Position numbers and translations under genes: made by a program. This document shows, in pieces, positions 4,739-34,971 of a stretch of 49,579 nt of DNA. The DNA is taken from NCBI GenBank assembly GCA_031266795.1, contig JAISAI010000042.1, forward strand, positions 1 to 49,579. The letters are read 5' to 3'. This stretch comes from Eubacteriales Family XIII. Incertae Sedis bacterium (GTDB taxonomy: Bacteria > Bacillota > Clostridia > Peptostreptococcales > Anaerovoracaceae). Position 1 is the stretch's first letter. Each line of letters starts with the position of its first letter. The notes beneath the pieces were generated by a model. The model worked only from the letters and a program-made list of their open reading frames with translations, made no database searches and had not been told where the DNA came from.

Positions 4739-4748
4739 CTTCGCCTCA

Positions 4749-6533: not shown

Positions 6534-6534
6534 A

Positions 6535-7488
6535 CTACTCTCCTTCCAACATCGATGGATGTTCGATGTACTCTTTCAGATCCTTCATGAATTTCTCTCC
6601 CGTCGTGCCGTCTATCACGCGGTGGTCGACCGTGAGGCTGAGCCCCGCGATGGGCCTGATGCCTATATTGCCGTCCACGGGGACCACCTTGTCCTCTATG
6701 TTCCCGACGCCGAGGATGGCGGTCTCGGGAAGATTGATGATCGGCGTGAAAAACCGCACGGGGGACACGCCGAGATTGGATATGGTGAACGTCCCTCCCG
6801 AAAACTCGTCCGGCTTCAGGCTCCCGCTCCTCGCCTTCGACACGAGGTCGGCGCGGCGGGCCACGATCCCCTCAAAGTCCAGCGTCTGCACATTCTTGAT
6901 ATTCGGCACGATGAGCCCGTTCTCGCCGAGCGAAACGGCGAGGCCGATATTCACGGCGCCCTTGAGCAGGATATGGTCGCCCATAAAGCTGGAATTGACC
7001 ATGGGGTTTTTCAGGAGGGCCAAGCAGCACGCCCGGATGAATATATCCGAGTACGTGGGCTTGATCCCCGTCGCGGCAAGGCAGCTCTCCGTTTTCTCTT
7101 TGAAATACGCTTTCAAGGACAGGCAGTCCGCCTCCATCATCATCGTGTATTGCGGCGAGGTACTCATGCTTTCGCTCATACGCTCCGCGATGGTGCGGCG
7201 CATGCCGTCAAGCGGCAGCACGCGGTCATTCCCGAGCCGGTCCCTGTAAGCGAGCACGTCGGCCTTCGCGATCACCTCCTTGCCCGCAACATCCGAAATA
7301 TCCACGCCGAGGTACTTCGCCACGGCGCGCGCGAGGTGCGTCGATCTGCCGCCGCGATACGAGCGCACGTCGCTCAGCTGGACGTAGGGCAAGGAAGCAA
7401 AGGCGCCCGAGCCCTTCACGCCGGCTATGTTTATCCCTCTCTCGCCGGCCGCCCTTATCGCGGCCGGAGTCGCTGCCTGTATCGCCAT
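6535..7488 (-). CDS. Dihydrolipoamide acyltransferase (E2) lacking a lipoyl domain
   Basis: The 317-residue protein transfers the acyl group from lipoyl to CoA. It begins directly with a peripheral-subunit-binding motif (ATPAAIRAAGERGINIAGVKGSG, about 6-40), followed by a second similar motif (about 50-80, THLARAVAKYLGVDISDV). The catalytic domain ends with DHRVIDG (His289, Asp293). E2 proteins normally carry one or more N-terminal lipoyl domains; none is present, and the missing swinging arm is on the neighbouring E3. The gene lies in an E1alpha-E1beta-E2-E3 operon and ATG 7488 has a GGAGG site. The family fits acetoin or pyruvate dehydrogenase complexes. Confidence 0.92.
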   Translation of the reverse strand: MAIQAATPAAIRAAGERGINIAGVKGSGAFASLPYVQLSDVRSYRGGRSTHLARAVAKYLGVDISDVAGKEVIAKADVLAYRDRLGNDRVLPLDGMRRTIAERMSESMSTSPQYTMMMEADCLSLKAYFKEKTESCLAATGIKPTYSDIFIRACCLALLKNPMVNSSFMGDHILLKGAVNIGLAVSLGENGLIVPNIKNVQTLDFEGIVARRADLVSKARSGSLKPDEFSGGTFTISNLGVSPVRFFTPIINLPETAILGVGNIEDKVVPVDGNIGIRPIAGLSLTVDHRVIDGTTGEKFMKDLKEYIEHPSMLEGE

Positions 7489-7539
7489 TTGCCCTCCGTT
7501 ACCATTACATTATCCCTCAATTACCACTATGCCTCAACG

Positions 7540-8517
7540 CTACGCGAGCAGCCCCTTGACGCATGCATAGATCGTATCCGGCTGGGGCACGACCTGCATC
7601 TCGAGCTGCGGGGAATACGGGATAGGTATGTCCTCCCCTCCCAGTCTGCGCACAGGCCTGTCGAGATAGAAGAACGCTTCGCTGTCCCCGATGAGCGACG
7701 CGACCTCCGCGCCAACCCCGAATTTCTGGACGCCCTCATGCGTCACAAGCGCCTTTCCCGTCTTCTTCACGGAAGCTATGATGGCGTCCGTGTCAAGGGG
7801 CGACAAGGTGCGCAGATCGAGCACCTCCGCGTCTATGCCGTCTTTCTCGAGCATTTCCGCCGCTTTCAGCGCTTTCAGCGCCGTCAGGGAGTAGCTGATG
7901 ATCGTGACGTCCTTTCCCTCGCGCATGACGTTCGCCTTGCCGATGGGGAGCACGTATTCCTCTTCGGGAACCTCGCCCTTCGTGCTGTACAGCAGCTTGT
8001 GCTCATAGAACAGTATCGCGTTATCCTCGCGGATCGCTGATTTCAGCAAGCCTTTCGCGTCATAGGGCGTCGAGGGCATCACGACCTTGAGCCCGGGTAC
8101 GTGGCAAAACCATGCCTCGAGCGACTGTGAGTGCTGGGCCGCCGCCCCGGTCCCGCTGCCGGCGGGCGTGCGGATAACAAGCGGGATCGTGACCTGGCCC
8201 CCGAGCATGAATCTGGCCTTTGCCGCTTGGTTTGTGATGAGATCCATAGCGCAGGTGACAAAATCCGAAAACATGTACTCCACGACCGGGCGATAGCCGG
8301 CCATCGCCGCGCCGATAGCCACGCCCGTGAAACCGCCCTCCGATATGGGGGTGTCTATGAGGCGTTCATCCCCGAACTCGTCGAGAAACCCGCGCGTCAC
8401 GCCGAAGCAGCCGCCGTACACGCCCATGTCCTCCCCGATCATGAACACCTTCTCGTCGCGCCGCATCTCTTCTTTCAACGCGTCCGAGACCGCCTGTAAA
8501 TAGGTAATTTCACTCAT
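7540..8517 (-). CDS. Thiamine-dependent dehydrogenase complex E1 component, beta subunit
   Basis: The product is the transketolase-like beta subunit of a branched-chain/acetoin-type E1. It has the expected MSEITYLQAVSDALKEEM start, the GEDMGVYGGCFGVTRG segment and a C-terminal transketolase domain ending in EDIPIPYS. I use ATG 8517, nine bases after AGGAGG, rather than the upstream ATG at 8580, whose extra 21 residues are encoded opposite the end of E1alpha and do not resemble the family. It forms the TPP site together with the alpha subunit encoded just upstream. Substrate may be acetoin, pyruvate or a related alpha-hydroxyketone; family membership alone does not decide. Confidence 0.93.
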   Translation of the reverse strand: MSEITYLQAVSDALKEEMRRDEKVFMIGEDMGVYGGCFGVTRGFLDEFGDERLIDTPISEGGFTGVAIGAAMAGYRPVVEYMFSDFVTCAMDLITNQAAKARFMLGGQVTIPLVIRTPAGSGTGAAAQHSQSLEAWFCHVPGLKVVMPSTPYDAKGLLKSAIREDNAILFYEHKLLYSTKGEVPEEEYVLPIGKANVMREGKDVTIISYSLTALKALKAAEMLEKDGIDAEVLDLRTLSPLDTDAIIASVKKTGKALVTHEGVQKFGVGAEVASLIGDSEAFFYLDRPVRRLGGEDIPIPYSPQLEMQVVPQPDTIYACVKGLLA

Positions 8518-8530
8518 TTGCTGTTTCCTC

Positions 8531-9487
8531 CTACGCAAAGACAAGCGATCTTGCTTCGTCAATACTGACGACTTCGGCATTCTGGGCGTAGGTGACCGCG
8601 TCGTCGCATTCTTTATCGATTTCGGCTCTCATCTTCGCGAGATCGCTCGCCTTGAATCCGTTTTTTGTCATATACTCCCCAAAGGATTTGATCGGGTCTT
8701 TCGCCTTCCACTCCGCCTCCTCTTCGCGCGTCCTATACGCGCGCTTATCGCTCTTGGAATGGCCGAGGTAGCGATAGGTCTTCGCCTCTATGAGCGTAGG
8801 CCCGTCGCCCCTCCGCGCCCGTTCGGCTGCCGTGGCGGTGACGTCCATGATCGCCTGTACGTCCGTGCCGTCGACGATCACGCCGGGCATGCCGTAAGCG
8901 GCCGCCCTGTCCGCGATGTTCGGCACGGAAACGCTTTTCTCGACGGAGGTAGACATCCCGTAGAGATTGTTCTCGCACAAATAGATGATCGGGAGCTTCC
9001 ACAGGGCGGCCATATTGAGCGACTCATGAAAAAGCCCCGAATTTGTGGTGCCGTCCCCGAAATAGTTCAGTATGACTTTCCCGCTTTTGTCCTTTTTTAG
9101 CGCGAGGGCAACGCCGGTAGCTATGGGGATGCCCGGGCCTATGACGCCGTTTGCGCCAAAATTGCCGACGGAAATATCCACGATGTGCATAGAGCCGCCC
9201 ACGCCCTTGCAGAACCCGTCCCTCTTGCCGAGCAGCTCACACATCATGCGCTGCAGATCGGCGCCCTTGGCGATACAGTGCGCGTGTCCCCTGTGGGAGC
9301 TCATCATGACGTCGTCGGGCTTCAAGGCGTTTATGGCGCCGGCCGCCGTCGCCTCCTGGCCGACGGCGAGATGCGTAGTCCCGTGGATCAGGCCCTTCAT
9401 GAACATCTCGTTCACCCGCTCCTCAAAAACCCTCGAACGATACATCTGCATGTAGATCGTTTTCATTTTTTCCTTCGACAACTTCAT
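8531..9487 (-). CDS. Thiamine-dependent dehydrogenase complex E1 component, alpha subunit
   Basis: The 318-residue alpha subunit has the thiamine-pyrophosphate motif GDGTTNSG (from residue 144) running to CENN (171-174), plus the HRGHAH and GGSMH segments typical of AcoA/PdhA proteins. It is the first gene of the E1alpha-E1beta-E2-E3-SorC unit; a GGAGG site precedes ATG 9487 by five bases. The alpha/beta split and the E3 with a lipoyl domain favour the acetoin dehydrogenase group over pyruvate dehydrogenase, but specificity is inferred. Its position next to glycyl-radical dehydratases suggests a ketone made by them as substrate. Confidence 0.93.
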   Translation of the reverse strand: MKLSKEKMKTIYMQMYRSRVFEERVNEMFMKGLIHGTTHLAVGQEATAAGAINALKPDDVMMSSHRGHAHCIAKGADLQRMMCELLGKRDGFCKGVGGSMHIVDISVGNFGANGVIGPGIPIATGVALALKKDKSGKVILNYFGDGTTNSGLFHESLNMAALWKLPIIYLCENNLYGMSTSVEKSVSVPNIADRAAAYGMPGVIVDGTDVQAIMDVTATAAERARRGDGPTLIEAKTYRYLGHSKSDKRAYRTREEEAEWKAKDPIKSFGEYMTKNGFKASDLAKMRAEIDKECDDAVTYAQNAEVVSIDEARSLVFA

Positions 9488-9564: not shown

Positions 9565-9600
9565 TTTCATGTCTATTTTACTCGAAACCCTCTGCGCTTG

Positions 9601-10272
9601 TCAACCGTCCGCCAAGCTCTTGAACCTTCGGACATTCGCCACAATATCATCCCTGAGTATATCGTCCCCCGTAAAAATGCCCGATCCGACGATGAGCACG
9701 TCCGCGCCGCACTCGAGAAGGGCCGCGCCCGTCTCCTCGTTGACGCCGCCGTCTATAAATATCTGGGTGGCTATGCCCTCCCGGTCGACGAAATCCCTCA
9801 CGGCCCTCACCTTTTCGTAGATACACGGATTCATCGCCTGCCCGCCAAATCCCGGTTCGACGCAGAGGAGGACGACGTAGTCCGCGTGCGCGATATAGTA
9901 TTTGATCTGGTCGATCGTGACGGAAGAATTGAAACCTATCCCCGCATTGATCCCTTTCCGCTTGATCGCCTCGAGCGTGCGCAGGACGCAGGCGCTGCTG
10001 TCCGACTGTATCGTGACCATGTCGGGGCCCGCCTCGAAGAAAATATCCAAATAGCACTGCGGATCATACATCTCAAGATGGGCTTCGACCGGCGCTTTGG
10101 ACAGGCGTTTCAGATCGCTCACGGTCTTTGGGCCAAATGAGAAATTGCCGCAGTACGCGCCGTCGACGACATCGATATGGACGAAATCGACTCCCGCGTC
10201 GTTCGCGGCCACAACAGAGTCGCCGAGGTACGCATTATTACATGATAATATAGAAGCTGCTACTTTGTTCAA
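9601..10272 (-). CDS. Ribulose-phosphate 3-epimerase family protein
   Basis: The 223-residue TIM-barrel epimerase has the family's metal and catalytic signatures in order: VHIDVVDG, EAHLEMYD, VEPGFGGQ and IDGGV. It interconverts ketose phosphates at C3; which ketose is not clear, as the first motif (VVDG plus GNFSFG) departs from the usual MDG-FVPN of true Rpe. It uses a TTG start (10272), four bases after the activase stop, so translation is probably coupled. Being in the GRE1 operon, it probably processes a phosphorylated sugar in that pathway, not the housekeeping pentose-phosphate step. A second, AlsE-like epimerase lies at 37365-38054. Confidence 0.87.
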   Translation of the reverse strand: MNKVAASILSCNNAYLGDSVVAANDAGVDFVHIDVVDGAYCGNFSFGPKTVSDLKRLSKAPVEAHLEMYDPQCYLDIFFEAGPDMVTIQSDSSACVLRTLEAIKRKGINAGIGFNSSVTIDQIKYYIAHADYVVLLCVEPGFGGQAMNPCIYEKVRAVRDFVDREGIATQIFIDGGVNEETGAALLECGADVLIVGSGIFTGDDILRDDIVANVRRFKSLADG

Positions 10273-10276: not shown

Positions 10277-11212
10277 TCACCCGCCTACCGTCGCGTTCAG
10301 CCCTTTCTCCACCATTACATCCCTTATCCCGTTCGCTATAGATTTATCGAGATCCTTCAGGCCCGATAGCGTGTAATCCATCCCCAGGGAATCGTATTTG
10401 TATTTGCCCAATTGATGGAAAGGAAGGACGTCTATATTCTCTATGCCGAGCTCCCGCGCCCACTCGATCAATCTGCCTATGTGCCCGTCGTCGTCGTTGA
10501 GGCCCGGCACGATCGGGCAGCGCATGGTGATATCCTTCCCCTTGGACGCGAGCCCGCGCAGGTTGCCCTTTACCTGATCGAGCGGGGCGTCGGATATAGT
10601 CCTGAATTTCTCCGGATCCGTGTATTTGACGTCGAACAGTATCTGATCGGCGTGCTCCGCCACACTCCAAAGCCGCTCGAACGGAACCGCTCCGGCCGTC
10701 TCGACCGCTACATTGATATGCCTGCGGCGCGCGGCCTTCGCCAATGCCGCGGCATAGCCGGCTTGAACACAGGGCTCGCCGCCGCCGATAGTCAGGCCGC
10801 CCCCGGACATGGCGAAGAACTTCGCGTCCTTCACGACTTCCTCAATCGCCTCATTGACGTTCATCGTTTTGCCGTAGAGCTCCATCGCGTCTTGAAGGCA
10901 GGATGCCACGCACGCGCCACAGGCGACGCATTTTGAGCCGTCGATAGACGGAAATCCGTCGTCGTCCGCGGTTATCGCGTCCCGAGGGCATACGCCGCTG
11001 CGGCATGTACCGCATTTGACGCACAGATTCCGGTGAACGGCTACCTGGAGCTGCAGGCTCTGCGATTCGGGATTGCAGCACCACTGGCACCAGAGATTGC
11101 AGCCCTTCAGAAACACATTTGTGCGGATGCCGCTCCCGTCGTTTACATGGTATTGCTCAATATTGAACACGACGCCTGTCGTGTCGTACTCTTCTTTATT
11201 ATCGAAAAACAT
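10277..11212 (-). CDS. Glycyl-radical enzyme activase 1 (radical SAM)
   Basis: The 311-residue protein installs the glycyl radical on its partner. It has the radical-SAM cluster motif CNLWCQWC near residue 40, a ferredoxin-like insert with two four-cysteine clusters (CVKCGTCRSGVCP and CVACGACVASC), and SGGGLTIGGGEP, the SAM-binding GGE segment. The two extra clusters are typical of activases for GRE dehydratases and lyases, unlike the short pyruvate formate-lyase activase. It starts two bases after the GRE1 stop and is therefore its cognate activase. Confidence 0.93.
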   Translation of the reverse strand: MFFDNKEEYDTTGVVFNIEQYHVNDGSGIRTNVFLKGCNLWCQWCCNPESQSLQLQVAVHRNLCVKCGTCRSGVCPRDAITADDDGFPSIDGSKCVACGACVASCLQDAMELYGKTMNVNEAIEEVVKDAKFFAMSGGGLTIGGGEPCVQAGYAAALAKAARRRHINVAVETAGAVPFERLWSVAEHADQILFDVKYTDPEKFRTISDAPLDQVKGNLRGLASKGKDITMRCPIVPGLNDDDGHIGRLIEWARELGIENIDVLPFHQLGKYKYDSLGMDYTLSGLKDLDKSIANGIRDVMVEKGLNATVGG

Positions 11213-11214: not shown

Positions 11215-13689
11215 CTATACCGCGTGTTGGGTCCTTTCGATAATGTCGTCCTGAAGCGCTTTATCGAGCGGAGTGAACAGCGCGCTATAGCCCGCTACGC
11301 GAACCATGAGATCCTTGTACGATCCCGGATCATGCTGGGCGGCCTTGAGCGTCTCGGCGGAAACGCAGTTGAGCTGCACGTGCATACCCTTGAAATCACT
11401 GAAGAATGTCCTCAGCACCTGCAAAAGCTTCGTCGAGTGGAGCCCCGGCTCGAGCGAAACGGGCATGACCTTGACGTTGAGCAGCTGGCCTCCCGAGACT
11501 AAGACCGTAGGCAGTTTGCCGACGGATTTCAATGAGGCGGTGATGCCTTTCGTGTCCGTGCCGTGCATCGGCGACGACGTATCGGCCAAGGCCTCCCCGG
11601 CCTTTCTTCCGTCCGGCGTCGCGCCTACGAATTCGCCCATGGGGACATTTGACGACACGGAGCTCGTCGAAGGCTGCCATGTGCCGCCTATGGGCCCGCG
11701 CCCATACCTCGTCGTATGGTATTTGGCCGTCTCTTCGCACATGAAGCGGAACGAATCGACCATGACGCTGTCGGCGTACTCGTCGTCGTTGCCGTATTTC
11801 GGCGCGTCCTTCATGAGCTTCAGTATTTCCGGGCCGGTGGGCGACGTGGCCTCGTCCCCATAATTCGTCTCAAGGGCGTGAAGCAGCTGCGCCCCCGTGA
11901 TCTTCTTGTCGTCAAACACGACTTTCCTGACCGCCGCGAGCGTATTCCCCACGTTTGCGGCGCCCACGTAGAGCGGCCCGCAATAATCGTAGATGGCGCC
12001 GCCCTGCTTGATCGTCTTGCCCCTCGCGATGCAATCGTTGACGAGCGACGACACATAGGGGTCGGCGATGCCCTCCTCCGTCATGCGGTCAATCGTGTTG
12101 TCGTTGATCACCTGACGCTTGAAGTAATACCGCGTCTGTATCTTGAACGCCTCGTAAAGATCGTCGTAGGACCCGAACGTGGCCAAATCGCCGTTGCCCG
12201 GCTGTAGGCGTCTCCCGGTTTTGGGATCCTTGCCGTTGTAGAGCGCGAGCTCCATGATCTTCGCGAGGTTGATGAAGCCGGCGCCGTTGGGGCGCGTGGA
12301 CTGTTTCCCCTCCACGATGGATTCCACGCAACCGACTATGGAGTAGTTGACCGCGTCCTCCCAGCCGATGCCCCTGTTCATGAGCGCGGGGATGTAGACC
12401 TCGTCGCTGTAGATCGCGGGCTGGCCGCCGCCGATGCGCACGACATCGAGCGCCGCGTACATGACGCGGTCGTCGATCCTGTTGTGGTAGCGCAGCGATA
12501 TAGACGGCGTATTGAGCGAGATGGCCGCCTGCGCGTTCAGGACGAGGAACGTCAACTCATTGGAGCTGTCGGCCCCGTTATGGTCCTGGCCGCCTACCGT
12601 TATGTTCTGGAAAAGCTGATACCCTGCAAACGACTTCGTATTTGCCCAGCAGGTCACTTTGAGGAGCTGGAAGACCTTCAGGAAGAAGCATTCGACGATT
12701 TCGAGCGCGTCCTCATAGCGAATCGTCCCCTGCCTTATGTCATTTTCGTACAGATCGATCAGCGTCTGGTCAAACCTCCCCGTGGAGATCGAATGGCCGT
12801 TGTTCTCAAGCTGCAAGGTCAGATTGATGAACCACATCGCCTGAACGCCTTCGTGGAAATCGCGCGCGGGGTTTTCGGGCACGTTGTTGCAGACATCCGC
12901 TATCTTCTCAAGCTCCAGCTTTCTGACGCGGTCGGACTCAACACCCGCGAGATCAGAGGCGATCTTCGCGTAGCGCTTCGCAAAGCGGATCACCGCTTCG
13001 TTACATATGATAACGGCCCGGAGAAACGGCGCTTGGCTCTCCTGATCCGGGTCGGAACTATCTATCTCGTCAAGGCGCGCCCGGGCCCGCGCGATAACAT
13101 CCTTGAGGCCTTTCCTCACGACGCCCTGAATATCAACCACGAGATGCCCCTCGCCGCCTATCATGAGCCAGTAAGAATCCGTGACGCCCATTTCGCGCAC
13201 GAGGGCCGTCTCCTCAGGCAGCACGGCCAAGCAACGGGACTCATGATCGTTGCCGTGCCAGAACGTATTGATCTCGCGAAGCGCTTTCTCATCCTCCTCG
13301 TCAATGATGTATCGGTCGCCCGGCCTGTCCTCGGGGCGCATTGGCTTGCCGTCGAGCTCCTCGATGAGCCAGTCGGAGCCAAATTCGGGGAATACGGGCG
13401 CCGTGCGGTCTTTCGTGCCGAGCGCGCCGACAATGATTTCCCCGTCGAGTATCGATATTTTCATGTTGTCCAAAATGTGCGCAAACGCCTTGGCGCGCTT
13501 CAGGACGACAGGATCGGAATTGTTGTTTTGGTACGCTTCCGTCAGAAGCTTTGCACGATCAGAGCAGATCTGGGCTTTCGCGTCAATCAAGCGGCCACGC
13601 AAGTTCTCGATTCGCCGGCTGCGAACGACCGGACGTTCCATAAAAATGTGCTTGGACTTCATGCTGTCTGCATATTCGTAGTAATTCAT
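11215..13689 (-). CDS. Glycyl-radical enzyme 1 of the dehydratase/lyase branch, substrate unknown
   Basis: The 824-residue enzyme carries the thiyl cysteine in GCVE (Cys454, Glu456) and the radical glycine in RVAGYSA (Gly800). GEGH (His182) and NNGHSIS (His299-Ser300) match positions that, from memory, bind substrate in B12-independent glycerol dehydratase. Classical pyruvate formate-lyase has two adjacent cysteines, absent here. After GCVE the sequence is SIVEGKQSTRPN. The aspartate that I recall twelve residues beyond the glutamate in glycerol dehydratase is Asn here, so a different substrate is likely. It is expressed from its own promoter with the island's shared motif; AGGAGG precedes ATG 13689. 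Confidence 0.93.
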   Translation of the reverse strand: MNYYEYADSMKSKHIFMERPVVRSRRIENLRGRLIDAKAQICSDRAKLLTEAYQNNNSDPVVLKRAKAFAHILDNMKISILDGEIIVGALGTKDRTAPVFPEFGSDWLIEELDGKPMRPEDRPGDRYIIDEEDEKALREINTFWHGNDHESRCLAVLPEETALVREMGVTDSYWLMIGGEGHLVVDIQGVVRKGLKDVIARARARLDEIDSSDPDQESQAPFLRAVIICNEAVIRFAKRYAKIASDLAGVESDRVRKLELEKIADVCNNVPENPARDFHEGVQAMWFINLTLQLENNGHSISTGRFDQTLIDLYENDIRQGTIRYEDALEIVECFFLKVFQLLKVTCWANTKSFAGYQLFQNITVGGQDHNGADSSNELTFLVLNAQAAISLNTPSISLRYHNRIDDRVMYAALDVVRIGGGQPAIYSDEVYIPALMNRGIGWEDAVNYSIVGCVESIVEGKQSTRPNGAGFINLAKIMELALYNGKDPKTGRRLQPGNGDLATFGSYDDLYEAFKIQTRYYFKRQVINDNTIDRMTEEGIADPYVSSLVNDCIARGKTIKQGGAIYDYCGPLYVGAANVGNTLAAVRKVVFDDKKITGAQLLHALETNYGDEATSPTGPEILKLMKDAPKYGNDDEYADSVMVDSFRFMCEETAKYHTTRYGRGPIGGTWQPSTSSVSSNVPMGEFVGATPDGRKAGEALADTSSPMHGTDTKGITASLKSVGKLPTVLVSGGQLLNVKVMPVSLEPGLHSTKLLQVLRTFFSDFKGMHVQLNCVSAETLKAAQHDPGSYKDLMVRVAGYSALFTPLDKALQDDIIERTQHAV

Positions 13690-13794
13690 TTCTATTGCCC
13701 TCCTTGCGCGTTGTTTTTTTGAAATTTTTATATAATTTTCGTTCTTGTGATGTGGATGAGGCGATAAACAGAACTCGTCTTTTTGATGTATCCC

Positions 13795-13859
13795 AGTGTA
13801 TCATTGTTCGGAAAAGCTGTCAATTGTCTAAAAAAAATTTTTTTGTCGCAACTGACAGC
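13795..13859 (-). promoter_or_regulatory. GRE1 promoter with paired operator half-sites
   Basis: Minus strand: TTGACA (13818-13823), a 17-bp spacer and TACACT (13795-13800), with the preceding TGA giving an extended -10. The -35 is embedded in CAATTGACAGC, whose 11-bp inverted copy (one mismatch) lies at 13849-13859. Between them is an uninterrupted A-run then T-run. This fits a two-site repressor or activator with the A/T tract as bend or UP element. Apart from this, 13690-13902 holds no gene. Confidence 0.7.
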
Positions 13860-13902
13860 CTATTTGCCTCTCCATTTCCATCAGGCTTTCGCGCTTGGCG
13901 CT

Positions 13903-16365
13903 TTAGAGCGCATGCTCTGTTCGGGCTATGATATCATCTTGGACGTCGGGGCAGAGGTCTACAAAATAGCCGCTGTATCCGGCTACCCGCACGATGAGAT
14001 CCGTGTAATCCTTTGGCTTGCGCTTTGCTTCCACAAGCGTACGGGATGAGACGATGTTGAACTGCAGTTGCATAGCGCGTTTCTCGAAGGCACCCTTTAT
14101 GAGCGCGACCCAGTTGTCGATACCCTGCTCCGAATCGACGGCGGAAGGCGCTATCTTGACGTTGAACAGCTGTCCTCCGGGCATCAGCACATTTGGCAAC
14201 TTCGCGTATGAGTTCATAAGGGCGGTCGGCCCCTTTGTTTCCGTGTCATGGAACGCCGATGTCCCCTCCGTGATCGGGGTTCCGGCCTTCCGTCCGTCAG
14301 CCGTCGCGCCGACGATCTGGCCGGTGAGCACATGCGACGCGACCGTAGCCGTCGACGGGATGAATGTGCCGCCTATCGGCCCCTTGCCATACCGCGTATT
14401 CTTGTAGCGCATTTCATGATCCGACAAATACTTCATGATATATGCGGCGATACCGTCCGGCTCGTCATTGTCATTGCCGAATTTGCTGTCGGACTTCAGC
14501 AGGATCTGCCTGATTTCCTCGCCGCTCGGGTCTGTGTCCCTGTCCTCAAAATCCGTATCGAGCGCGTGCTTCAGTTGCTCCGCCGTAATGCGCTTGTCGT
14601 CAAATACGACCTTCTTGATCGTGGCAAGGGAATTCGCCGCCGAGATGATGCCCACGGACTGCCCGCCCGTAAAGTCATACTTCGCGCCGCCCTGCTTGAT
14701 CTCTTTGCCCCGGGATATGCAGTCGTCTATCATCGCGGACAGGAACGGATTGGGCGTACACACGCCCCACGACATATCCACGACATTTCCCGCGACCACA
14801 TGGTGTTTCAGAAAGAAATCGAGCTGCGTCGTGAACGCGTTCATGAGCTCGTCGAAGTCCTTAAACGTCGTTATATCGCCGTCGAGCGGGGCGAGCGTCA
14901 GGCCCGTGCGCGGGTCCTTCCCGCCGTTTACGGCCAGCTCGGCCCACTTCGCGAAATTCGGGAAGCCCGCGCCGTAGCGTCCGCCTATCTGCCCGTGCGG
15001 CGCCGGTTCGACGCAGCCCACCATCGCGTAGTTTATAGCGTCCTCATACGAATACCCTATGTTCAGCATGGACGGGATGATGACCTCGTCGTTGAAGAAG
15101 GCGGGCAGGCTCCCTATTTTCCGGATGACCTTCACGGCTTCCTTCATGAAACGGTCCGACGTGCCCGCATACCACCTCACCGTGAGGGACGGCTGCGTCA
15201 TGCTGAGCTTCTTCGTGCAGGCGAGAGACAGATACGACAACTCATTCACCGCGTCCTGGCCGTTGAGCGTCTGCCCTCCGATCGTGAGGTTTTGGAACAG
15301 CGGATTTCCGACAAAGGCGACCGTATTATCCCAATCGCGCAGCTTCGAGAACTCCGTCACCTTCAGCCAGAGGCAATTCATGATTTCAAACGCGCGCCCA
15401 GCGTCAAGCGCGCCGGAGTCAATATCCCTCACGAAGAACGGATAGAGATACTGGTCTACGCGGCCGAACGAGATAGAATGGCCGTTGCTCTCAAGCTGGA
15501 CCGGTATATTCACGAAGAGGATCGACTGCACGGCCTCGTAGAATGTTTCGGCAGGATGCTCGGGGATGCGGCGGCATATGCGCGCCATTTCGGTGAGCTC
15601 AGCCTTGCGGGCCGTATCGTGTTCGGCCGACGCCATGTCTTCAAGCTTATCCGCGTAGCGGTTTGCGAATGTGACGACCGCTTTCAGCGTGATGACGACC
15701 GACTTCAGGAAGGTGACCTGTTCGAGCTGGGCCGGGTCGGTAATATCAATCCCGTCAAGCCTGTTTTGCGTCTGTTCCAACACGCCCTTTATACCTTCGC
15801 GAATCACGCGGATATAGTTCGGGATCGTGTGGCCGTCGCCGCTCGTCATGACCCAGTTTTCTTCCGTGCCCTTCACCTCCTGGCACGCGAGGCGCGTCTC
15901 CTCGGGGAGCAGGGACCTGACCATGTCCTCGTGCGTATGGCCTCGCCAATACGGGATGATCTCGTCAATGAGATAGCGCTTCGTCTCTTCCGTGACGTCA
16001 TACGCGTCCCCCGGCCTTTCGTCGATAAAATACGGGTCGCCATTCAATTCCTTTTCAATCCAGTCCACGGAAAATTCCGGGAAAATCGGGGCGCCTCTCG
16101 GAATGGACGCGAGATTGCCCGCAAGCAGATCGCCCTCCTTGACGTAGAGCGTCATATGGGACAGGACGTTGTCGAGCGCTTTGGCGCGCCGCAGTATCGT
16201 CGGCTCACCCTCCGTCTCACGAAAAGACTCCGTGAAATATTTGACGCGATCCGTGCAGACCGAAGGGCTCGTAGAAAAAAATATGTCCCTCAGTTTTTTT
16301 ATGCGCGGCGTCAGTTCCACGCTGTCATCGAGATACTTGATATACTCCTTCATTCTTCTTTCCAT
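13903..16365 (-). CDS. Glycyl-radical enzyme 2 of the dehydratase/lyase branch, substrate unknown
   Basis: About 820 residues. Numbered from the first possible Met (16377), it has GDGH (His183), SNGHSIS (His300-Ser301), GCVEPAPHGQIGG (Cys455, Glu457) and RVAGYSG (Gly800). I prefer the second Met (16365), with GAGG six bases upstream; 16377 and 16353 are alternatives. It shares architecture with GRE1 but is clearly diverged, especially after GCVE, where neither the glycerol- nor choline-type sequence that I recall is present. It lies downstream of its own activase, an aldo/keto reductase and ABC transporter 1 in one operon. It probably acts as a dehydratase or C-X lyase on a transported or reduced sugar-like compound. 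Confidence 0.93.
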   Translation of the reverse strand: MERRMKEYIKYLDDSVELTPRIKKLRDIFFSTSPSVCTDRVKYFTESFRETEGEPTILRRAKALDNVLSHMTLYVKEGDLLAGNLASIPRGAPIFPEFSVDWIEKELNGDPYFIDERPGDAYDVTEETKRYLIDEIIPYWRGHTHEDMVRSLLPEETRLACQEVKGTEENWVMTSGDGHTIPNYIRVIREGIKGVLEQTQNRLDGIDITDPAQLEQVTFLKSVVITLKAVVTFANRYADKLEDMASAEHDTARKAELTEMARICRRIPEHPAETFYEAVQSILFVNIPVQLESNGHSISFGRVDQYLYPFFVRDIDSGALDAGRAFEIMNCLWLKVTEFSKLRDWDNTVAFVGNPLFQNLTIGGQTLNGQDAVNELSYLSLACTKKLSMTQPSLTVRWYAGTSDRFMKEAVKVIRKIGSLPAFFNDEVIIPSMLNIGYSYEDAINYAMVGCVEPAPHGQIGGRYGAGFPNFAKWAELAVNGGKDPRTGLTLAPLDGDITTFKDFDELMNAFTTQLDFFLKHHVVAGNVVDMSWGVCTPNPFLSAMIDDCISRGKEIKQGGAKYDFTGGQSVGIISAANSLATIKKVVFDDKRITAEQLKHALDTDFEDRDTDPSGEEIRQILLKSDSKFGNDNDEPDGIAAYIMKYLSDHEMRYKNTRYGKGPIGGTFIPSTATVASHVLTGQIVGATADGRKAGTPITEGTSAFHDTETKGPTALMNSYAKLPNVLMPGGQLFNVKIAPSAVDSEQGIDNWVALIKGAFEKRAMQLQFNIVSSRTLVEAKRKPKDYTDLIVRVAGYSGYFVDLCPDVQDDIIARTEHAL

Positions 16366-16390
16366 GGTTTGCCTCATTTCTGCTTAACGT

Positions 16391-16418: not shown

Positions 16419-17309
16419 TCATTCAACGCGGGCTTTGATGTTTTTCTCTGCGCATAGCTCTCTGAACTCGCCTATCTCCTCTTCCGTCGGTTTGCGCCCA
16501 TTGAAAGCGTACTCTCGCCGCAGCATTTTGTATTTATTGTCACCGTACGTGTGGTACGGCAAAATATCCACGCGTCCTATACCTACGTCACCGAGTAGCT
16601 CCGCCGTATGTTCAATGTTTTCCGACGCCGTATTGAATCCCCCTATAAACGGCGCTCTCACGACGATATTATACCCTTCCTCGACTGATTTTCTCAAGTT
16701 ATCTATGATGAGGTCGTTCGTGACGCCCGTGCCCTCTTCATGCATCGCGGGAGACGCGTGCTTCACATCATAGAGCACGAGGTCTACGTGGTCAAACACC
16801 CTTTTGACATCGTCCCAAGCCGCATAGCCCGTCGTCTCGATGGCCAAGCGGTAGCCCATATCGCGCGCCTCACGGGCGAGGGCCTCCGCAAATTCGGGCT
16901 GCATGAGCGGCTCGCCGCCCGATAGCGTGACGCCCCCGCCCGATGCGGAGTAGAATGCCGCGTCCCGTTCGACCTCGTCTATCACCTCGTCCACCGTCAG
17001 CGTCACGCCTTTCAGCTCAAGCGCTTTGGCGGGGCATTCCCGGACGCAATTCCCGCAATACGTACATTTAGCATCCGCCCCCTGCCCTCCTACCGGGATA
17101 TGAAACGGGCATACCTTCACGCATCTGCCGCAGCCGAGACAGGTCTGCTCCCGAAAAAAAATATCCGGCTCACAGCGCTGCGATTCGGGATTGGAACACC
17201 ATTTGCAACGCAGCGGGCAGCCCTTGAAGAAAACGACCGTACGAATCCCCGGGCCGTCGTGCGTGCTGTACCTCTGGATGTCGAATACCCTGCCCACGAG
17301 CCGACTCAT
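16419..17309 (-). CDS. Glycyl-radical enzyme activase 2 (radical SAM)
   Basis: The 296-residue activase has the radical-SAM motif CPLRCKWC near residue 31, two extra iron-sulfur clusters (CLGCGRCVKVCP and CTYCGNCVRECP) and GGGVTLSGGEP. It is predicted to abstract hydrogen from Gly800 of GRE2, encoded next downstream. Its ATG overlaps the aldo/keto reductase stop (ATGA), indicating translational coupling. The activase precedes its enzyme here, whereas in the GRE1 pair it follows, so the two modules were probably acquired separately. Confidence 0.93.
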   Translation of the reverse strand: MSRLVGRVFDIQRYSTHDGPGIRTVVFFKGCPLRCKWCSNPESQRCEPDIFFREQTCLGCGRCVKVCPFHIPVGGQGADAKCTYCGNCVRECPAKALELKGVTLTVDEVIDEVERDAAFYSASGGGVTLSGGEPLMQPEFAEALAREARDMGYRLAIETTGYAAWDDVKRVFDHVDLVLYDVKHASPAMHEEGTGVTNDLIIDNLRKSVEEGYNIVVRAPFIGGFNTASENIEHTAELLGDVGIGRVDILPYHTYGDNKYKMLRREYAFNGRKPTEEEIGEFRELCAEKNIKARVE

Positions 17310-18142
17310 TCATTGCCGTCAAAGGTCATCGCGTCAAAACCAAAGCTACCCTTCCCGTCGAGGCCGTCGATCAAAGCCATATCTTCATCGGAGAGCGTGA
17401 AGTCAAGAATATCGAGATTTGAGATCATCCTCTCCTTCTTTGAGGACTTCGGGATGATAATGTTCCCGTGCCTCACGTGCCAGTGCAGCGTGGCCTGCGC
17501 CGCGCTCACGCCATAGCGCGCGCCGATCTCATCAAGCAGAGGCTCTTCTTTCAGATGCCCGTGGAAAAGAGGCCCCCACGCGGTGACGAGGATATCATGC
17601 TTCTTGCACCACGCCGCGAGTTCCCGCTGTTGACGCCAAGGGTGGAGCTCTATCTGATCGTTCTCCACCGGAACCCCGGTTTTTTGCTCTATGATATTCA
17701 TATGTATCTCATGAAGATTTGAGCCGCCGAGCGCCCTGATCCGGCCTTCCTCCCGCCACGCTATCATCTTTTCCCAGACGTTCAGCATGAGCGCTTCATC
17801 CACGCCGGGCCAATGCAGCATATACATATCGACATAGTCCAAGTGGAGCTTTTTCATGCTGTCGCTGAAGGCTTCGTCGGCCCGGACAAATTCCGTAGGC
17901 CATATCTTCGTCGTGATAAAAATATCCTCCCTCGGCACGTCGCTATCCCTGACGGCGTCGCCGACAGCCTCCTCGTTTCTGTAAAAAGCGGCCGTATCGA
18001 TATGCCGGTATCCGACATCGAGGGCGTTCCTGACCTGCGTGTACGTATCCTGCGCGAACGTGTCGTCCCAAACGCCGTAGCCGACGGCCGGTAGAGCCCC
18101 GCCGCTCCTCAGCGTGTAGGTATCGTGAACGGAATGTATCAT
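17306..18142 (-). CDS. Aldo/keto reductase
   Basis: This NAD(P)H-dependent carbonyl reductase has the complete catalytic tetrad, numbered from the start used here: Asp49 and Tyr54 (HIDTAAFY), Lys79 (TTKI) and His110 (MLHWPG), plus the C-terminal IIIPKSS cofactor motif. I take ATG 18142, nine bases after AAGGAGG; the longer frame to 18187 overlaps the permease gene. It probably reduces an aldehyde or ketose to the alcohol, or the reverse. Its position in the transporter 1-GRE2 operon suggests it prepares the GRE2 substrate or reduces its aldehyde product. Confidence 0.9.
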   Translation of the reverse strand: MIHSVHDTYTLRSGGALPAVGYGVWDDTFAQDTYTQVRNALDVGYRHIDTAAFYRNEEAVGDAVRDSDVPREDIFITTKIWPTEFVRADEAFSDSMKKLHLDYVDMYMLHWPGVDEALMLNVWEKMIAWREEGRIRALGGSNLHEIHMNIIEQKTGVPVENDQIELHPWRQQRELAAWCKKHDILVTAWGPLFHGHLKEEPLLDEIGARYGVSAAQATLHWHVRHGNIIIPKSSKKERMISNLDILDFTLSDEDMALIDGLDGKGSFGFDAMTFDGNE

Positions 18143-18158
18143 GGCGACGCGGACCTCC

Positions 18159-19142
18159 TTACTTGCTCTTCTTGTTGACAATATCAAGCAGCACCGCGGC
18201 GATGATGATGATACCGCTGACGATCTGCTGCCAGAATGAAGATACGCCCATCAGGTCGAGCCCATTGTTCAGCACGCCGATAATGACCGCGCCCACGAGC
18301 GTCCCCCACATAGCGCCTGTGCCGCCGCTCAGGCTCGTACCGCCGATGACGACCGCCGAAATCGCCTGCAACTCGTAGCCGGAGCCGACATTCGGCTGGC
18401 CAACCGTCATGCGGGTCGCCTGCAATATGCCCGCGACGGCTACGAGCCCTCCCGCAAGGACATAGACGGACAGCTTCACCCAGAGCGTCCTGATGCCCGA
18501 GGCCCTCGCCGCCTCCTCGTTGCCGCCGATAGCGTAGAGGTATCTGCCGTATTTTGTCTTGTTCAAAACAATCGCTGTGATGATAAAAGCCACGATCATG
18601 ACGATGACGAGATACGGGAATATGCCCACGCCGTTCTTGCCAAAATCCTTCCACGGGCCCGACATATCGGAAATGGGACGCCCGTTGCTAATGAGAAGCG
18701 CCGTTCCCCTGGCTATCGTCATCGTCCCGAGCGTTACGATGAACGGAGCAAGCTTCAGCACGGAGACAAGTACGCCGTTCAGCGCTCCAAACGTAAGGCC
18801 GATGACGACCGCTATCACAATAGGGATAATGAGCGGATAGATGGGATCGGCCCCGCTCTCCTCCCCCCTTGCGTACATGGCGAACACGACGCCGCACAAA
18901 GCAAGCAACGATCCGCAGGAGAGGTCAATACCTCCCGTTATAATTACAAACGTGGCCGCCATCGCCAGAATAGCTATGACCGAAATCTGTCTGAGAATAT
19001 TGATGAGATTGTCCTGCGTCATAAATTTGTCCGTCATAATACTCAAGACAAGCATAAGAATAATCAGCGCAAGCAAGATGGCGTATTTCCTGAAAACTAC
19101 CCTAAATAATCCACCAATATTATTCCGTTCAATATTGTTCAC
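18159..19142 (-). CDS. Sugar ABC transporter 1, permease (RbsC family)
   Basis: The 327-residue membrane protein has about eight to ten hydrophobic segments and the RbsC-family features GGIDLSCGSLLAL and AVVIGGTSLSGG. It forms the channel for a monosaccharide or polyol with the ATPase encoded upstream. It uses a GTG start (19142), six bases after AGGAGG. No binding-protein gene is in this operon; the lipoprotein at 27706-28734 is the likely partner because its promoter carries the same motif. Confidence 0.93.
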   Translation of the reverse strand: MNNIERNNIGGLFRVVFRKYAILLALIILMLVLSIMTDKFMTQDNLINILRQISVIAILAMAATFVIITGGIDLSCGSLLALCGVVFAMYARGEESGADPIYPLIIPIVIAVVIGLTFGALNGVLVSVLKLAPFIVTLGTMTIARGTALLISNGRPISDMSGPWKDFGKNGVGIFPYLVIVMIVAFIITAIVLNKTKYGRYLYAIGGNEEAARASGIRTLWVKLSVYVLAGGLVAVAGILQATRMTVGQPNVGSGYELQAISAVVIGGTSLSGGTGAMWGTLVGAVIIGVLNNGLDLMGVSSFWQQIVSGIIIIAAVLLDIVNKKSK

Positions 19143-19179: not shown

Positions 19180-20676
19180 TCACGCGATCGCAAGCTCCAT
19201 GATTGACTCTTGGCTTATATCGCGTTTCTCCGCTATCACGCCGGTCTGCTCCCCCTCATGCAAGACCACGACCTTATCGCTCAGCCCGACGAGCTCGGGC
19301 AGCTCGGACGATACGAGGATCACCGCGTTCCCCTGCTCCGCCAGATCCACAATAAGTTTGTATATCTCCGATTTGGTCCCTATATCGATGCCGCGCGTCG
19401 GCTCGTCCATTATCAATATCTCGGCGCCTTCGAGCACCGCCTTCCCGATGACGACTTTTTGCTGATTGCCGCCGCTGAGATTGTTCACGCATTGATACCT
19501 GTTCGGCGTTTTGATACGCATCTTTGTGATGATTTCATCAGCGACCGCATTCTCCTGCTTGCCCTTCAGTAAAAACGACTTGAACAGGCGGCTCAGGCTC
19601 GACAGCGTAATATTGTCGCGTACCGAGAGAGGCAGGACAAGGCCCACCCCCTTGCGATCCTCGCTCACGAAGCCGATGCTTCGGCCTATCGCGGATCTGG
19701 GGGAGTCGATGTCGACCTTCTCGCCCTTGATATAGATCTCTCCGGAGTCAGGTTTGTCCATGCCGAACAGGCAGCGCATGATCTCTGTACGCCCAGCGCC
19801 CATCAGGCCCGCAAACCCGACGATCTCGCCGCGGTGCACGGAGAACGATACGTCCTTGAAGTGCGGCACTCGCGAGAAGTTCTCGACTCTGAGCACCTCC
19901 TCGCCCAGCGCGCACTTCTTCTCGGAAAACACATCGACGAGATCGCGTCCAACCATATCCCGAATGATCGTGCCGATGTCTATATCCTTTGCGTCGTAGG
20001 AGTTGACGTTCTTCCCATCGCGAAATACGGTCACGTAGTCCGCAATGCGGAGAATCTCGTCCATCTTGTGTGAAATATAGATAATAGATACGCCCCGGCC
20101 CTTCAAATCCTTTATCATGCCGAAGAGCTGATCGATCTCCCTGTCCGTGATGGCCGACGTGGGCTCATCCATAATGATGATGTTCGCGTCGTAGGAAATA
20201 GCCTTCGCGATCTCGATCATCTGTTGTTCCGAAACCATGAGATCGCTCATCTTGCGCTTCGGATCAAATTTGACATTGAGCTTATCTAAAAGCTCTTCGG
20301 CCCTGCGGTTCATCTCGGCCGTATCGAGTATCCCCAGATGGGAGACCTCGCGGCCGAGGAAGATATTGTCCGCTATCGTAAGCTCGGGAACGTAGCTGAG
20401 CTCCTGATGGATCATGGATATTCCCCTATGGAGCGTCAACAGTTCCGAACGGTGCTTGAACGGCTCGCCCTGATACATGACGTCGCCGGAATCCTCGTGG
20501 TACATTCCCGTCAAAATCTTCATGAGCGTGGACTTGCCCGCGCCATTCTCTCCCATCAGCGCGTGGACCGTGCCCTTCTTTAGAAAAAAATCCACATCCG
20601 ACAGCGCCTGCACTCCCACAAAAGCTTTGGAGATGCTCCTCATTTCGAGTATATACTGATCTTGCCCACTTGCCAT
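19180..20676 (-). CDS. Sugar ABC transporter 1, duplicated ATPase (RbsA family)
   Basis: Two fused ABC domains, about 498 residues, energise sugar uptake. The first has Walker A GENGAGKST (42-50) and IIIMDEPTSAI; the second has the degenerate GLMGAGRTE typical of RbsA/MglA, then LSGGNQQK and LIMDEPTRGID. I start at ATG 20676, six bases after GGGAGG; the extra residues of the upstream frame fall in the promoter. First gene of the operon transporter 1 - aldo/keto reductase - activase 2 - GRE2, divergent from the FGGY kinase. Confidence 0.93.
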   Translation of the reverse strand: MASGQDQYILEMRSISKAFVGVQALSDVDFFLKKGTVHALMGENGAGKSTLMKILTGMYHEDSGDVMYQGEPFKHRSELLTLHRGISMIHQELSYVPELTIADNIFLGREVSHLGILDTAEMNRRAEELLDKLNVKFDPKRKMSDLMVSEQQMIEIAKAISYDANIIIMDEPTSAITDREIDQLFGMIKDLKGRGVSIIYISHKMDEILRIADYVTVFRDGKNVNSYDAKDIDIGTIIRDMVGRDLVDVFSEKKCALGEEVLRVENFSRVPHFKDVSFSVHRGEIVGFAGLMGAGRTEIMRCLFGMDKPDSGEIYIKGEKVDIDSPRSAIGRSIGFVSEDRKGVGLVLPLSVRDNITLSSLSRLFKSFLLKGKQENAVADEIITKMRIKTPNRYQCVNNLSGGNQQKVVIGKAVLEGAEILIMDEPTRGIDIGTKSEIYKLIVDLAEQGNAVILVSSELPELVGLSDKVVVLHEGEQTGVIAEKRDISQESIMELAIA

Positions 20677-20692
20677 AAAGAACCTCCCGAAA

Positions 20693-20722
20693 TTGACAAC
20701 CATCCTTGAATAGACGTATAAT
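20693..20722 (+). promoter_or_regulatory. Near-consensus promoter of the FGGY kinase gene
   Basis: Plus strand: TTGACA (20693-20698), 18 bp, TATAAT (20717-20722). Its -10 overlaps that of the opposing promoter. Confidence 0.7.
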
Positions 20723-20750
20723 ACCACTTGTAAATCGGAATGTCAATTGT
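20718..20750 (-). promoter_or_regulatory. Promoter of transporter 1 - GRE2 operon with CAATTGAC motif
   Basis: Minus strand: TTGACA (20741-20746) within ACAATTGACA, 17 bp, TATTAT (20718-20723) preceded by TGG. An extra TTGACA lies just upstream as a direct repeat. It shares five base pairs of -10 with the plus-strand kinase promoter, so the two polymerases cannot bind together. Confidence 0.7.
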
Positions 20751-20811
20751 CAACCATTATGCATATATTAACAAATGGCAATCTCACAAATGCATCGAAA
20801 GGAATGGTTAT

Positions 20812-22338
20812 ATGCGCTGTTTTCTGGGTATCGACGCGGGCACAAGCGGCGTCAAAGCGGTCGTTATAAATGATTCAGGCCGGATCGTCGGCGACGGATA
20901 CGCGCCGTGCGAGCTCATAACGCCAAAGCCGAACTGGGCGGAGCAGAGCCCGGCCGGATGGTGGGAGGCGTGCGACAAAGCCGTAAGGCAAGCCGTGGCG
21001 CCCGGCGGCTTCGCTAAAGATATTGTCAGCATAGGTTTTTCCGGACAGATGCAGGGGCTCACGCTCTTGGATAAGGATATGAAACCCGTGAACAACTGTA
21101 TCATATGGATGGATCAGCGGGCGTCTGCCGAAGCCGACGAGCTGAACGCGCGCATACCCGAAGACGAGATACTGAAGATCGCCCACAATTTCTGCATACC
21201 CAGCTATTGGGCGGCCAAACTCGTCTGGCTCATGCGCAACAGGCCTGAGGATTACGAACGCACACACATGATATTATTCCCGAAAGACTATCTCCGCTAC
21301 CTTATTACGGGGGAAATCGCGACGGAAGTATCCGACGCCTCCTGCTCATGGCTCATCGATGTGAAAAAGCGGGCTTGGTCGGACAGGATGTTTGACGTCG
21401 TCGGGGTTTCCAAGGACATCATTCCTCAGACCCTCTTGGAAAGCAGTGACGTGGCGGGGTATCTGCTCTCTGACGTCGCCGCGTCGTGGGGCGTGCCGGC
21501 GGGGATACCGGTGGCGGCCGGCGGAGGCGACCAGCCCGTCGGGGGCGTCGGGAGCGGCATCATCGAGAGCGGTATGGTGACGAGCGTCATCGGCACATCC
21601 GGCGTCATATTCGGTTGTTGCGAACCTCCGCTCGCGGATAGGAAAAGAAGGGCCATGTACAGCCTCTGCCATTCGATTCCGGACAAATACGCCTTCCTCG
21701 GCTGCACGCTCGGTGCGGGCGGTTCGTACAAGTGGCTGCGGGATACGCTGTTCAAGGAAGCTGACGACAATTCCTTCGCCTTTATGGATAGCCTCGCGGC
21801 GCGCGCGCCCGTCGGAAGCGAGGGGCTCTGCTTCCTTCCTTATATGTCGGGGGAGGGCACGCCGCATGTGGACTCGAACGCGAGAGGCACGTTCTTCGGG
21901 CTGAGCTATAGGCATGATAGGGGCGCCATATGCCGGAGCGTCATGGAGGGCGTCGCGTTCTCGCTGCGGGACACGATTGAAATACTGAGGGAGTCAACCG
22001 GGCTCGTGGTGGACGAGGTCCGCGCGCTCGGCGGCGGAGGGAAGAGCCCTCTGTGGCGGCAGATACAGGCTGACGTCTACGGGGCTTCCGTGTTGACTAT
22101 GGAGACGGAGGAAGGGCCCGCCGTAGGCGGCGCGATCCTCGGGGCGGTGGCGGCGGGAGCGCACCCGACGGTCGAGGAAGCGTGCTCGGCCCTGTTGAAA
22201 ACGGCGACCGTGACGGAGCCCATCGCGGAAAACGTGAAGATCTATGACGACTACTATGCGACGTACCGGAGCCTTTACCCCGCGCTGAAAGGCATCTTTG
22301 CTTCCCAAGCGGGGATAGTGGCAAGGCATTCCGCGTAG
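20812..22338 (+). CDS. FGGY-family carbohydrate kinase, xylulokinase-like
   Basis: The product phosphorylates a ketose or polyol with ATP. It has the N-terminal nucleotide-fold motif GIDAGTSGVKAV, the SGQMQG segment close to the xylulokinase GQMHG, a GGGDQPVGGVGSG segment with the likely catalytic Asp, and FLPYMSGEGTPHVD. I start at ATG 20812 (MRCFLGIDAG) with AAAGGA upstream; the longer frame from 20740 runs through the promoter. It is the only clear plus-strand gene here. It faces transporter 1 and is presumably co-induced or reciprocally regulated with it. D-xylulose is the closest family guess; other pentuloses, hexuloses or polyols are possible. Confidence 0.9.
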   Translation: MRCFLGIDAGTSGVKAVVINDSGRIVGDGYAPCELITPKPNWAEQSPAGWWEACDKAVRQAVAPGGFAKDIVSIGFSGQMQGLTLLDKDMKPVNNCIIWMDQRASAEADELNARIPEDEILKIAHNFCIPSYWAAKLVWLMRNRPEDYERTHMILFPKDYLRYLITGEIATEVSDASCSWLIDVKKRAWSDRMFDVVGVSKDIIPQTLLESSDVAGYLLSDVAASWGVPAGIPVAAGGGDQPVGGVGSGIIESGMVTSVIGTSGVIFGCCEPPLADRKRRAMYSLCHSIPDKYAFLGCTLGAGGSYKWLRDTLFKEADDNSFAFMDSLAARAPVGSEGLCFLPYMSGEGTPHVDSNARGTFFGLSYRHDRGAICRSVMEGVAFSLRDTIEILRESTGLVVDEVRALGGGGKSPLWRQIQADVYGASVLTMETEEGPAVGGAILGAVAAGAHPTVEEACSALLKTATVTEPIAENVKIYDDYYATYRSLYPALKGIFASQAGIVARHSA

Positions 22339-23913: not shown

Positions 23914-23932
23914 AGCGCCTCCCTTCACGCGT

Positions 23933-24733: not shown

Positions 24734-24745
24734 GTCGCCCTCTTA

Positions 24746-27642: not shown

Positions 27643-27685
27643 ATTATATTGTGATGTGATGTGGAAGTCAAACTTCCACATCACA
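27643..27685 (-). promoter_or_regulatory. SorC2 promoter within a 31-bp inverted repeat
   Basis: Minus strand: TTGACT (27666-27671), 17 bp, TATAAT (27643-27648). The arms TGTGATGTGGAAGT (27655-27668) and ACTTCCACATCACA (27672-27685) are perfect complements with a 3-base loop covering the -35. No T-run follows, so operator is preferred over terminator. Confidence 0.7.
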
Positions 27686-27705
27686 ATCATGTAATTGACT
27701 ACTTG

Positions 27706-34968: not shown

Positions 34969-34971
34969 ACG

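Follow-up and report, generated by a model that had tools for sequence, protein, structure and literature searches.

The two adjacent, oxygen-sensitive glycyl-radical enzymes (GRE1 and GRE2) described here are very probably polyol or sugar C-O lyases that lie outside the characterised clades of their family. They are encoded in the window, the whole stretch of 49,579 nucleotides that was analysed, among genes for sugar kinases, epimerases and sugar transport. Whether they are two undescribed C-O-cleaving specificities, which with the kinases, an epimerase and a thiamine/lipoyl complex would feed a pathway through 1-deoxyketoses to acetyl-CoA, is judged an even question.

The window is a single contig; it comes from an uncultured, gut-type bacterium of the Bacillota, whose genome is 74% complete. 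Judged by these genes, its nearest named relative is a Christensenellaceae bacterium. GRE1 and GRE2 are the only PFL2-3-family GREs found in this 74%-complete genome. The two enzymes and their activases are located as follows.

10277..11212, minus strand: activase 1, radical SAM with three clusters; TIGR02494 288.6 bits, over the cut-off; 2 bp from GRE1
11215..13689, minus strand: GRE1, YbiW-side superclade, 824 amino acids; Cys454, Glu456 and Gly800; TIGR01774 743.6 bits, over the cut-off
13903..16377, minus strand: GRE2, 824 amino acids; Cys455, Glu457 and Gly800; TIGR01774 766 bits, over the cut-off of this broad model
16419..17309, minus strand: activase 2, radical SAM with three clusters; TIGR02494 341.6 bits, over the cut-off

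Both GRE ORFs are intact, and the proteins are 43% identical. GRE1 contains a GxGH motif (His182), NGHS (297-300), GCVE (Cys454 and Glu456) and RVAGY (Gly800). GRE2 contains NGHS (298), GCVE (Cys455 and Glu457) and RVAGY (Gly800). The glycyl motif RVAGY lies at 797-801 and GCVE starts at 453/454 in the two proteins, the sequence features that place them in the GRE superfamily. Each activase has a CxxxCxxC radical-SAM motif and two ferredoxin-type clusters. By alignment, Asp447 of Clostridium butyricum glycerol dehydratase (1r8w) corresponds to Gly469 in both GRE1 and GRE2. A preliminary description of this DNA had reported intact GCVE, GH, GHS and RVAGY motifs, one three-cluster activase for each enzyme and the lack of this aspartate, all of which were recovered here. 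Its coordinate of 11215 for GRE1 is correct; 16365, given as the end of GRE2, is a downstream start, and the full ORF reaches 16377.

None of the NCBIfam equivalog cut-offs for CutC, HypD, HpsG, HpfG, the indoleacetate and hydroxyphenylacetate decarboxylases, or PRK09983 was reached by GRE1 or GRE2, with wide margins, which rules out assignment to a known NCBIfam equivalog. IslA was compared by PDB chains (7kq3); the NCBIfam matches had no IslA model. These chains score below YbiW and glycerol dehydratase against the two GREs, as does PDB 9rco (“Glycyl radical protein”), which was left out of the alignment and tree. In the 46-row tree, GRE1 and GRE2 form separate lineages within the YbiW-containing clade (support 99/96) and are not members of the YbiW subclade proper. 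Glycerol dehydratase, propanediol dehydratase and PflD fall on the opposite side. GRE1 and GRE2 share 38-40% identity with YbiW of E. coli and 39-40% with glycerol dehydratase; the values are 37-38% for propanediol dehydratase and 34% for PflD. A RYGRGPIGG-type insert (GRGPIGG) and the Gly replacing Asp447 are common to the YbiW-side proteins, GRE1 and GRE2 included.

YbiW (PDB 8yjn/8id7) thus resembles the window enzymes in superclade, insert, the Gly at the Asp447 position and the GRE catalytic residues. It differs in its low identity and in its partners, which are a PTS and an FSA aldolase instead of FGGY kinases, an epimerase and an E1-E2-E3 complex. Glycerol dehydratase (1r8w) and 1,2-propanediol dehydratase (5i2g) are of the same family and have the active-site His, Ser, Cys and Glu, but unlike them the window GREs lack Asp447, carry the extra insert and lie outside their clade. 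Tree placement and the missing Asp447 rule out an identity as either dehydratase. In PMC12441222, YbiW is described as a ring-opening 1,5-anhydroglucitol-6-phosphate (AG6P) lyase that converts AG6P to 1-deoxyfructose-6-P, and YbiW and PflD, citing Ma et al., as converting 1,5-anhydro-hexitol-6-phosphates to 1-deoxyfructose-6-phosphate. PflD, a 1,5-anhydromannitol-6-phosphate lyase (8yjo), is by that account also a sugar-derived GRE lyase giving 1-deoxyfructose-6-P; it differs from the window GREs in lacking the insert, in its side of the tree and in its 34% identity.

The preliminary description had named clustering with a characterised group as the result that would count against it; no equivalog cut-off is reached, and both proteins lie outside the glycerol/propanediol dehydratase clade. 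It had considered carbohydrate or polyol chemistry not yet described to be plausible, and offered no specific reaction. The setting is supported by FGGY kinases, epimerases and sugar ABC genes linked in other genomes. The novelty has to be narrowed, because YbiW is the nearest characterised clade and sugar-derived GRE chemistry is therefore already partly described.

From 20727 to 3764, the minus strand encodes an ABC ATPase, a permease, an aldo/keto reductase, activase 2, GRE2, GRE1, activase 1, a ribulose-phosphate-3-epimerase (RPE)-family epimerase, E1alpha, E1beta, E2, a lipoyl-domain E3, and a SorC-type regulator. The gene of a xylulokinase-family kinase diverges from the ABC-GRE genes, and a ribulokinase-like FGGY kinase is next to it. 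The sugar genes are located as follows.

9601..10272, minus strand: RPE-family protein; TIGR01163 198 bits, just below the 212.6 cut-off
17306..18187, minus strand: aldo/keto reductase, DkgA-like; PRK11565 252 bits, under the 425 cut-off; adjoins activase 2
18159..19142, minus strand: ribose-type sugar ABC permease (NCBIfam)
19180..20727, minus strand: ribose/xylose-type sugar ABC ATPase (NCBIfam)
20740..22338, plus strand: xylulokinase-family FGGY kinase (XylB), likely start near 20812; TIGR01312 487 bits, over the 380 cut-off
22369..23928, minus strand: ribulokinase-like FGGY kinase; PRK04123 337 bits, under the cut-off
30214-33859: full sugar ABC transporter with binding protein
34021-34968: PfkB kinase
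37365-38054: second RPE-family epimerase

The last three belong to a second sugar cluster (28856-38770) with MFS, ribose-type ABC, PfkB, BtpA-family, PF07090, RbsD/FucU and RPE genes. DUF2182 (PpoB2-like) and DUF1326 genes adjoin the FGGY kinase (23933-25402); in a relative (G377) they lie downstream of the GRE1 cluster (L003, 17528-21399), and their role is not evident. The two sugar transporters, three kinases, two epimerases and aldo/keto reductase noticed earlier were all located around the GREs. Overlooked at that stage was the most informative neighbour, the E1alpha-E1beta-E2-E3 complex with its SorC-type regulator directly downstream (3764-9487), composed as follows.

8531..9487, minus strand: E1 alpha subunit (ThDP) of an acetoin/pyruvate-dehydrogenase-like complex; Pfam E1_dh; closest plasmid homologs in sugar operons
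7540..8580, minus strand: E1 beta subunit, probably starting near 8517; Pfam Transket_pyr/Transketolase_C and E1b tree
6535..7488, minus strand: E2 acyltransferase with E3-binding domain, without lipoyl domain; Pfam PF00198 and PF02817
4749..6533, minus strand: E3 dihydrolipoyl dehydrogenase bearing the lipoyl domain of the complex; Pfam PF00364 and Pyr_redox
3764..4771, minus strand: SorC/DeoR-type sugar-binding regulator (reg1); PF04198; ortholog adjoins XylB in genomes G377 (L204) and G089 (L290)

By Pfam, the parts list of an acetoin dehydrogenase complex (E1alpha, E1beta, E2, E3 and lipoyl domain) is complete. The lipoyl domain is on E3, and none is on E2 (4749-7488). With most sugar-operon E1s, the window E1beta shares 55-61% identity, and with acetoin-type and pyruvate dehydrogenase (PDH) E1s 45-50%. 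In the E1b tree, it does not group with acetoin-type E1; deep nodes are weak. G089, of the same genus as the window, encodes a further, acetoin-type complex that comes with an AcoR-like regulator; the E1beta of that complex is 50% identical to that of the window. No AcoR-type activator accompanies the window complex, and the SorC regulator is in its place. A plain acetoin operon is made unlikely by the SorC regulator, the separate acetoin-type paralog of G089 and the higher identity to sugar-linked E1s, weak as the deep E1 nodes are. PFOR was found in each of the six genomes searched, so pyruvate does not require the complex, which is unlikely to be the main route for it. Compared with acetoin and pyruvate dehydrogenase complexes, the window complex shares ThDP-dependent E1 alpha and beta, E2 and E3. 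It differs in its regulator, in the place of the lipoyl domain and in its 45-50% E1beta identity; it and its relatives differ further in having sugar-kinase and GRE or DXR-II neighbours.

Chemically, 1-deoxyketoses (CH3-CO-CHOH-R) are acyloins, like acetoin, and acetoin dehydrogenase acts on substrates of this type. The pathway proposed here combines the intact catalytic residues, the clade placement and the recurrent gene linkages observed; substrate, regiochemistry, order of phosphorylation and cleavage reaction we infer from gene neighbourhoods. Once Gly800 is activated, the active-site Cys thiyl would abstract a hydrogen from a carbinol carbon of the substrate, either a polyol or a cyclic anhydro-polyol. 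The neighbouring C1-O bond would be eliminated to give a 1-deoxyketose, which the two FGGY kinases (ribulokinase-like and xylulokinase-like) would phosphorylate. The RPE-family epimerase would adjust C3 to yield 1-deoxy-D-xylulose 5-phosphate (DXP) or a close relative. The E1-E2-lipoyl-E3 complex would then carry out an oxidative cleavage of this DXP-type phosphate. Acetyl-CoA, NADH and an aldose phosphate would result, the last being glyceraldehyde-3-phosphate if the substrate is a pentitol. Pentitols would fit the kinase and epimerase types best and are a possible, still doubtful, substrate; anhydro-polyols, or phosphorylation before the radical step, could also apply.

A 1-deoxyketose-phosphate product has precedent in this GRE clade, since YbiW makes 1-deoxyfructose-6-P (PMC12441222). 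PDH is reported to form 1-deoxyxylulose from pyruvate and glyceraldehyde; DXP rises in vivo with mutant AceE (PDH E1), and 1-deoxyxylulose is a substrate that XylB phosphorylates (PMC3424233). The 1-deoxyketose pathway is the simplest account of two GREs, two FGGY kinase types, an epimerase and an acyloin-type complex taken together. In the open-access literature, most subscription journals being outside the search, no paper was found that describes a GRE together with xylitol, and none that describes the catabolism of DXP or methylerythritol.

The same genes recur in other genomes. In a relative, G377, GRE1, GRE2, the two FGGY kinases and the complex are all retained, spread over separate loci, with the E1 genes unlinked from the GREs. 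One locus (L003) contains a GRE1 ortholog (73%), a cupin-like protein, an activase, an FGGY kinase (66%) orthologous to the ribulokinase-like kinase of the window and adjoining the GRE1 ortholog, an RPE-family epimerase (identity only 32%), and a zinc-type alcohol dehydrogenase. A second (L286) contains a GRE2 ortholog (76%) with its own activase, and a third (L204) an E1-E2-E3 operon (86% E1beta) adjoining SorC and XylB (58%) orthologs. In G089, SorC, XylB and a GRE are adjacent (L290), and a sugar ABC-E1-E2-E3 cluster is elsewhere (L205). Two further genomes (G380/G680; L213/L214) have ABC genes, two GREs, an FGGY kinase, a ROK kinase and an RPE; no activase was detected near these GREs. Another locus (L289) has an FGGY kinase, a GRE, an activase and a class II aldolase-like protein. 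An FGGY kinase is thus adjacent or close to a GRE in the window, L003, L213/L214, L289 and L290. Relatives of the complex stand beside XylB-type kinases and SorC regulators in L204, L267, L268 and L274. The complex also occurs without a GRE, because G145 has it (85%) and no GRE match was found in that 86%-complete genome. Matches to the C-terminal half of a split transketolase, and zinc-type dehydrogenases, are near GREs of another clade (L194, L196 and L197).

These neighbourhoods bear on the possibility that GRE1 and GRE2 are YbiW-like anhydro-sugar lyases that open 1,5-anhydro-hexitols or -pentitols, with or without a phosphate, with the E1 complex still cleaving the product, for example to acetyl-CoA and erythrose-4-phosphate. 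The shared superclade and insert, and the action of YbiW on AG6P (PMC12441222), speak for it. An FSA aldolase adjoins the YbiW-type GREs of other Bacillota (L186, L187, L203 and L222), whereas profile searches found neither an FSA aldolase nor a PTS in the window. Open-chain ketoses suit FGGY kinases better, and identity to YbiW is only 38-40%. We consider this reading rather improbable.

Seven alphaproteobacterial plasmid loci, reached from the closest E1alpha/E1beta matches, offer a parallel to the 1-deoxyketose pathway (L261, L262, L277, L278, L280, L281 and L282). A DXR-II-family gene lies immediately upstream of E1alpha in all seven inspected. In six of them a SorC regulator is also present, together with a sorbitol-type PTS or a sugar ABC, in one case with PfkB; the neighbours in L277 are different. 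Some of these DXR-II-E1alpha-E1beta-E2 modules add E3 and lipoyl synthase. The DXR-II protein of L261 matches PDB 3upl/3upy, which we take to be the Brucella DXR-like (DRL) structures, with 696 bits. An eighth alphaproteobacterial plasmid (Phaeobacter) has a different setting without DXR-II, and a Priestia and a C. difficile plasmid carry the complex with a SorC regulator, also without DXR-II. The DXR-II (DRL) modules resemble the window in their related E1alpha (about 50-52%), E1beta (55-57%) and E2, and usually in SorC regulators and sugar transport. They differ in their front end, where DXR-II and a sorbitol-type PTS or ABC take the place of a GRE, and their function is predicted only. DXR-II converts DXP to MEP (PMC3847144). 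The modules possibly serve 2-C-methylerythritol catabolism.

GRE-E1alpha-E1beta clusters recur in at least two lineages of Atribacterota. Three GRE-activase-E1alpha-E1beta clusters (L004, L006 and L235) are mutually orthologous (83-85%), and a fourth locus (L234) has a 49% GRE with an adjacent E1 pair. In L248, the arrangement is looser, with GRE and E1 6 kb apart, and its E1beta groups with acetoin-dehydrogenase-type E1. Among 50 genomes with 39 GREs, four GRE-E1beta pairs within 3 kb were observed where 0.26 would be expected (P about 1.5e-4); when orthologs are counted once, two pairs remain (P about 0.03). This linkage is moderate evidence. Other Atribacterota operons (L240, L241, L243, L245 and L249) combine a GRE, a ROK-like kinase, a CUT1-like sugar ABC and a PF07090 amidotransferase-like protein. 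A PF07090 protein is also in the second sugar cluster of the window (35879-36724).

The recurrence in another phylum weighs against GRE1 and GRE2 being of the ordinary diol-dehydratase type, giving 2-deoxyaldoses or aldehydes that the aldo/keto reductase reduces, beside an unrelated acetoin/pyruvate operon. Known glycerol and propanediol dehydratases do yield aldehydes, the reductase gene adjoins activase 2, and a separate promoter-like site precedes the E1 operon. The presence of PFOR, and an E1beta farther from the acetoin-type protein of G089 (50%) than from most sugar-linked E1s (55-61%), also argue against this reading, which is improbable. It is most improbable that the GREs act on non-carbohydrates (amino-acid, sulfonate or choline type) and lie in a sugar island by chance: diverse as GRE chemistry is, no CutC, HypD, HpsG or HpfG equivalog cut-off was reached, and the sugar neighbours are found again in other genomes.

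Regulatory features of the window are as follows.

9575..9604, minus strand: promoter-like site upstream of E1 alpha, consensus match only
13745..13758, plus strand: near-identical half-site of the reg2 palindrome, in the GRE1 leader; sequence match, suggestive only
13795..13823, minus strand: promoter-like site upstream of GRE1, consensus match only
20693..20746, divergent: overlapping promoter-like sites for XylB (plus) and the ABC-GRE2 genes (minus), 12/12 and 11/12 matches
26642..27598, minus strand: second SorC/DeoR-type regulator (reg2); PF04198; TransRegDeoRBac 239 bits, under the cut-off

The promoter-like sites before XylB/ABC, GRE1 and E1alpha suggest that these may be three neighbouring transcription units and not one operon. 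A palindrome (TTGTGATGTGGAAGT...ACTTCCACATCACAA) lies upstream of reg2 (27654-27686), and its half-site in the GRE1 leader suggests that reg2 may control GRE1. One operator common to all promoters was rejected, the half-site being only at GRE1 and reg2.

Several points count against the 1-deoxyketose pathway. The 1,2-diol dehydratases of the GRE family normally give an aldehyde, not a methyl ketone. The E1 genes have their own promoter-like site, E1 and GREs are unlinked in G377, G145 has the complex without a GRE, and the RPE of L003 is only 32% identical. The Atribacterota linkage falls to P of about 0.03 with orthologs counted once, the E1beta of L248 is acetoin-type, and deep E1 nodes are weak.

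With confidence a little short of even, we propose an undescribed anaerobic route of radical dehydration of pentitols or anhydro-polyols, phosphorylation, and thiamine/lipoyl cleavage to acetyl-CoA and triose (or tetrose) phosphate. DXP would be a catabolic intermediate, and a like complex would serve DXR-II-based 2-C-methylerythritol catabolism in rhizobia. DXP is a known isoprenoid and vitamin precursor; if the proposal is true, it would also be a growth intermediate, and glycyl-radical and thiamine/lipoyl chemistries would be joined in one catabolic route. Several unassigned GRE lineages would gain a role, as would the widespread sugar-linked E1 genes that are named “pyruvate dehydrogenase-like”, perhaps misleadingly. 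More generally, the way in which a 1-deoxyketose is cleaved could then be read from the enzyme that follows the polyol GRE, be it FSA, a class II aldolase, a split transketolase or an E1 complex.
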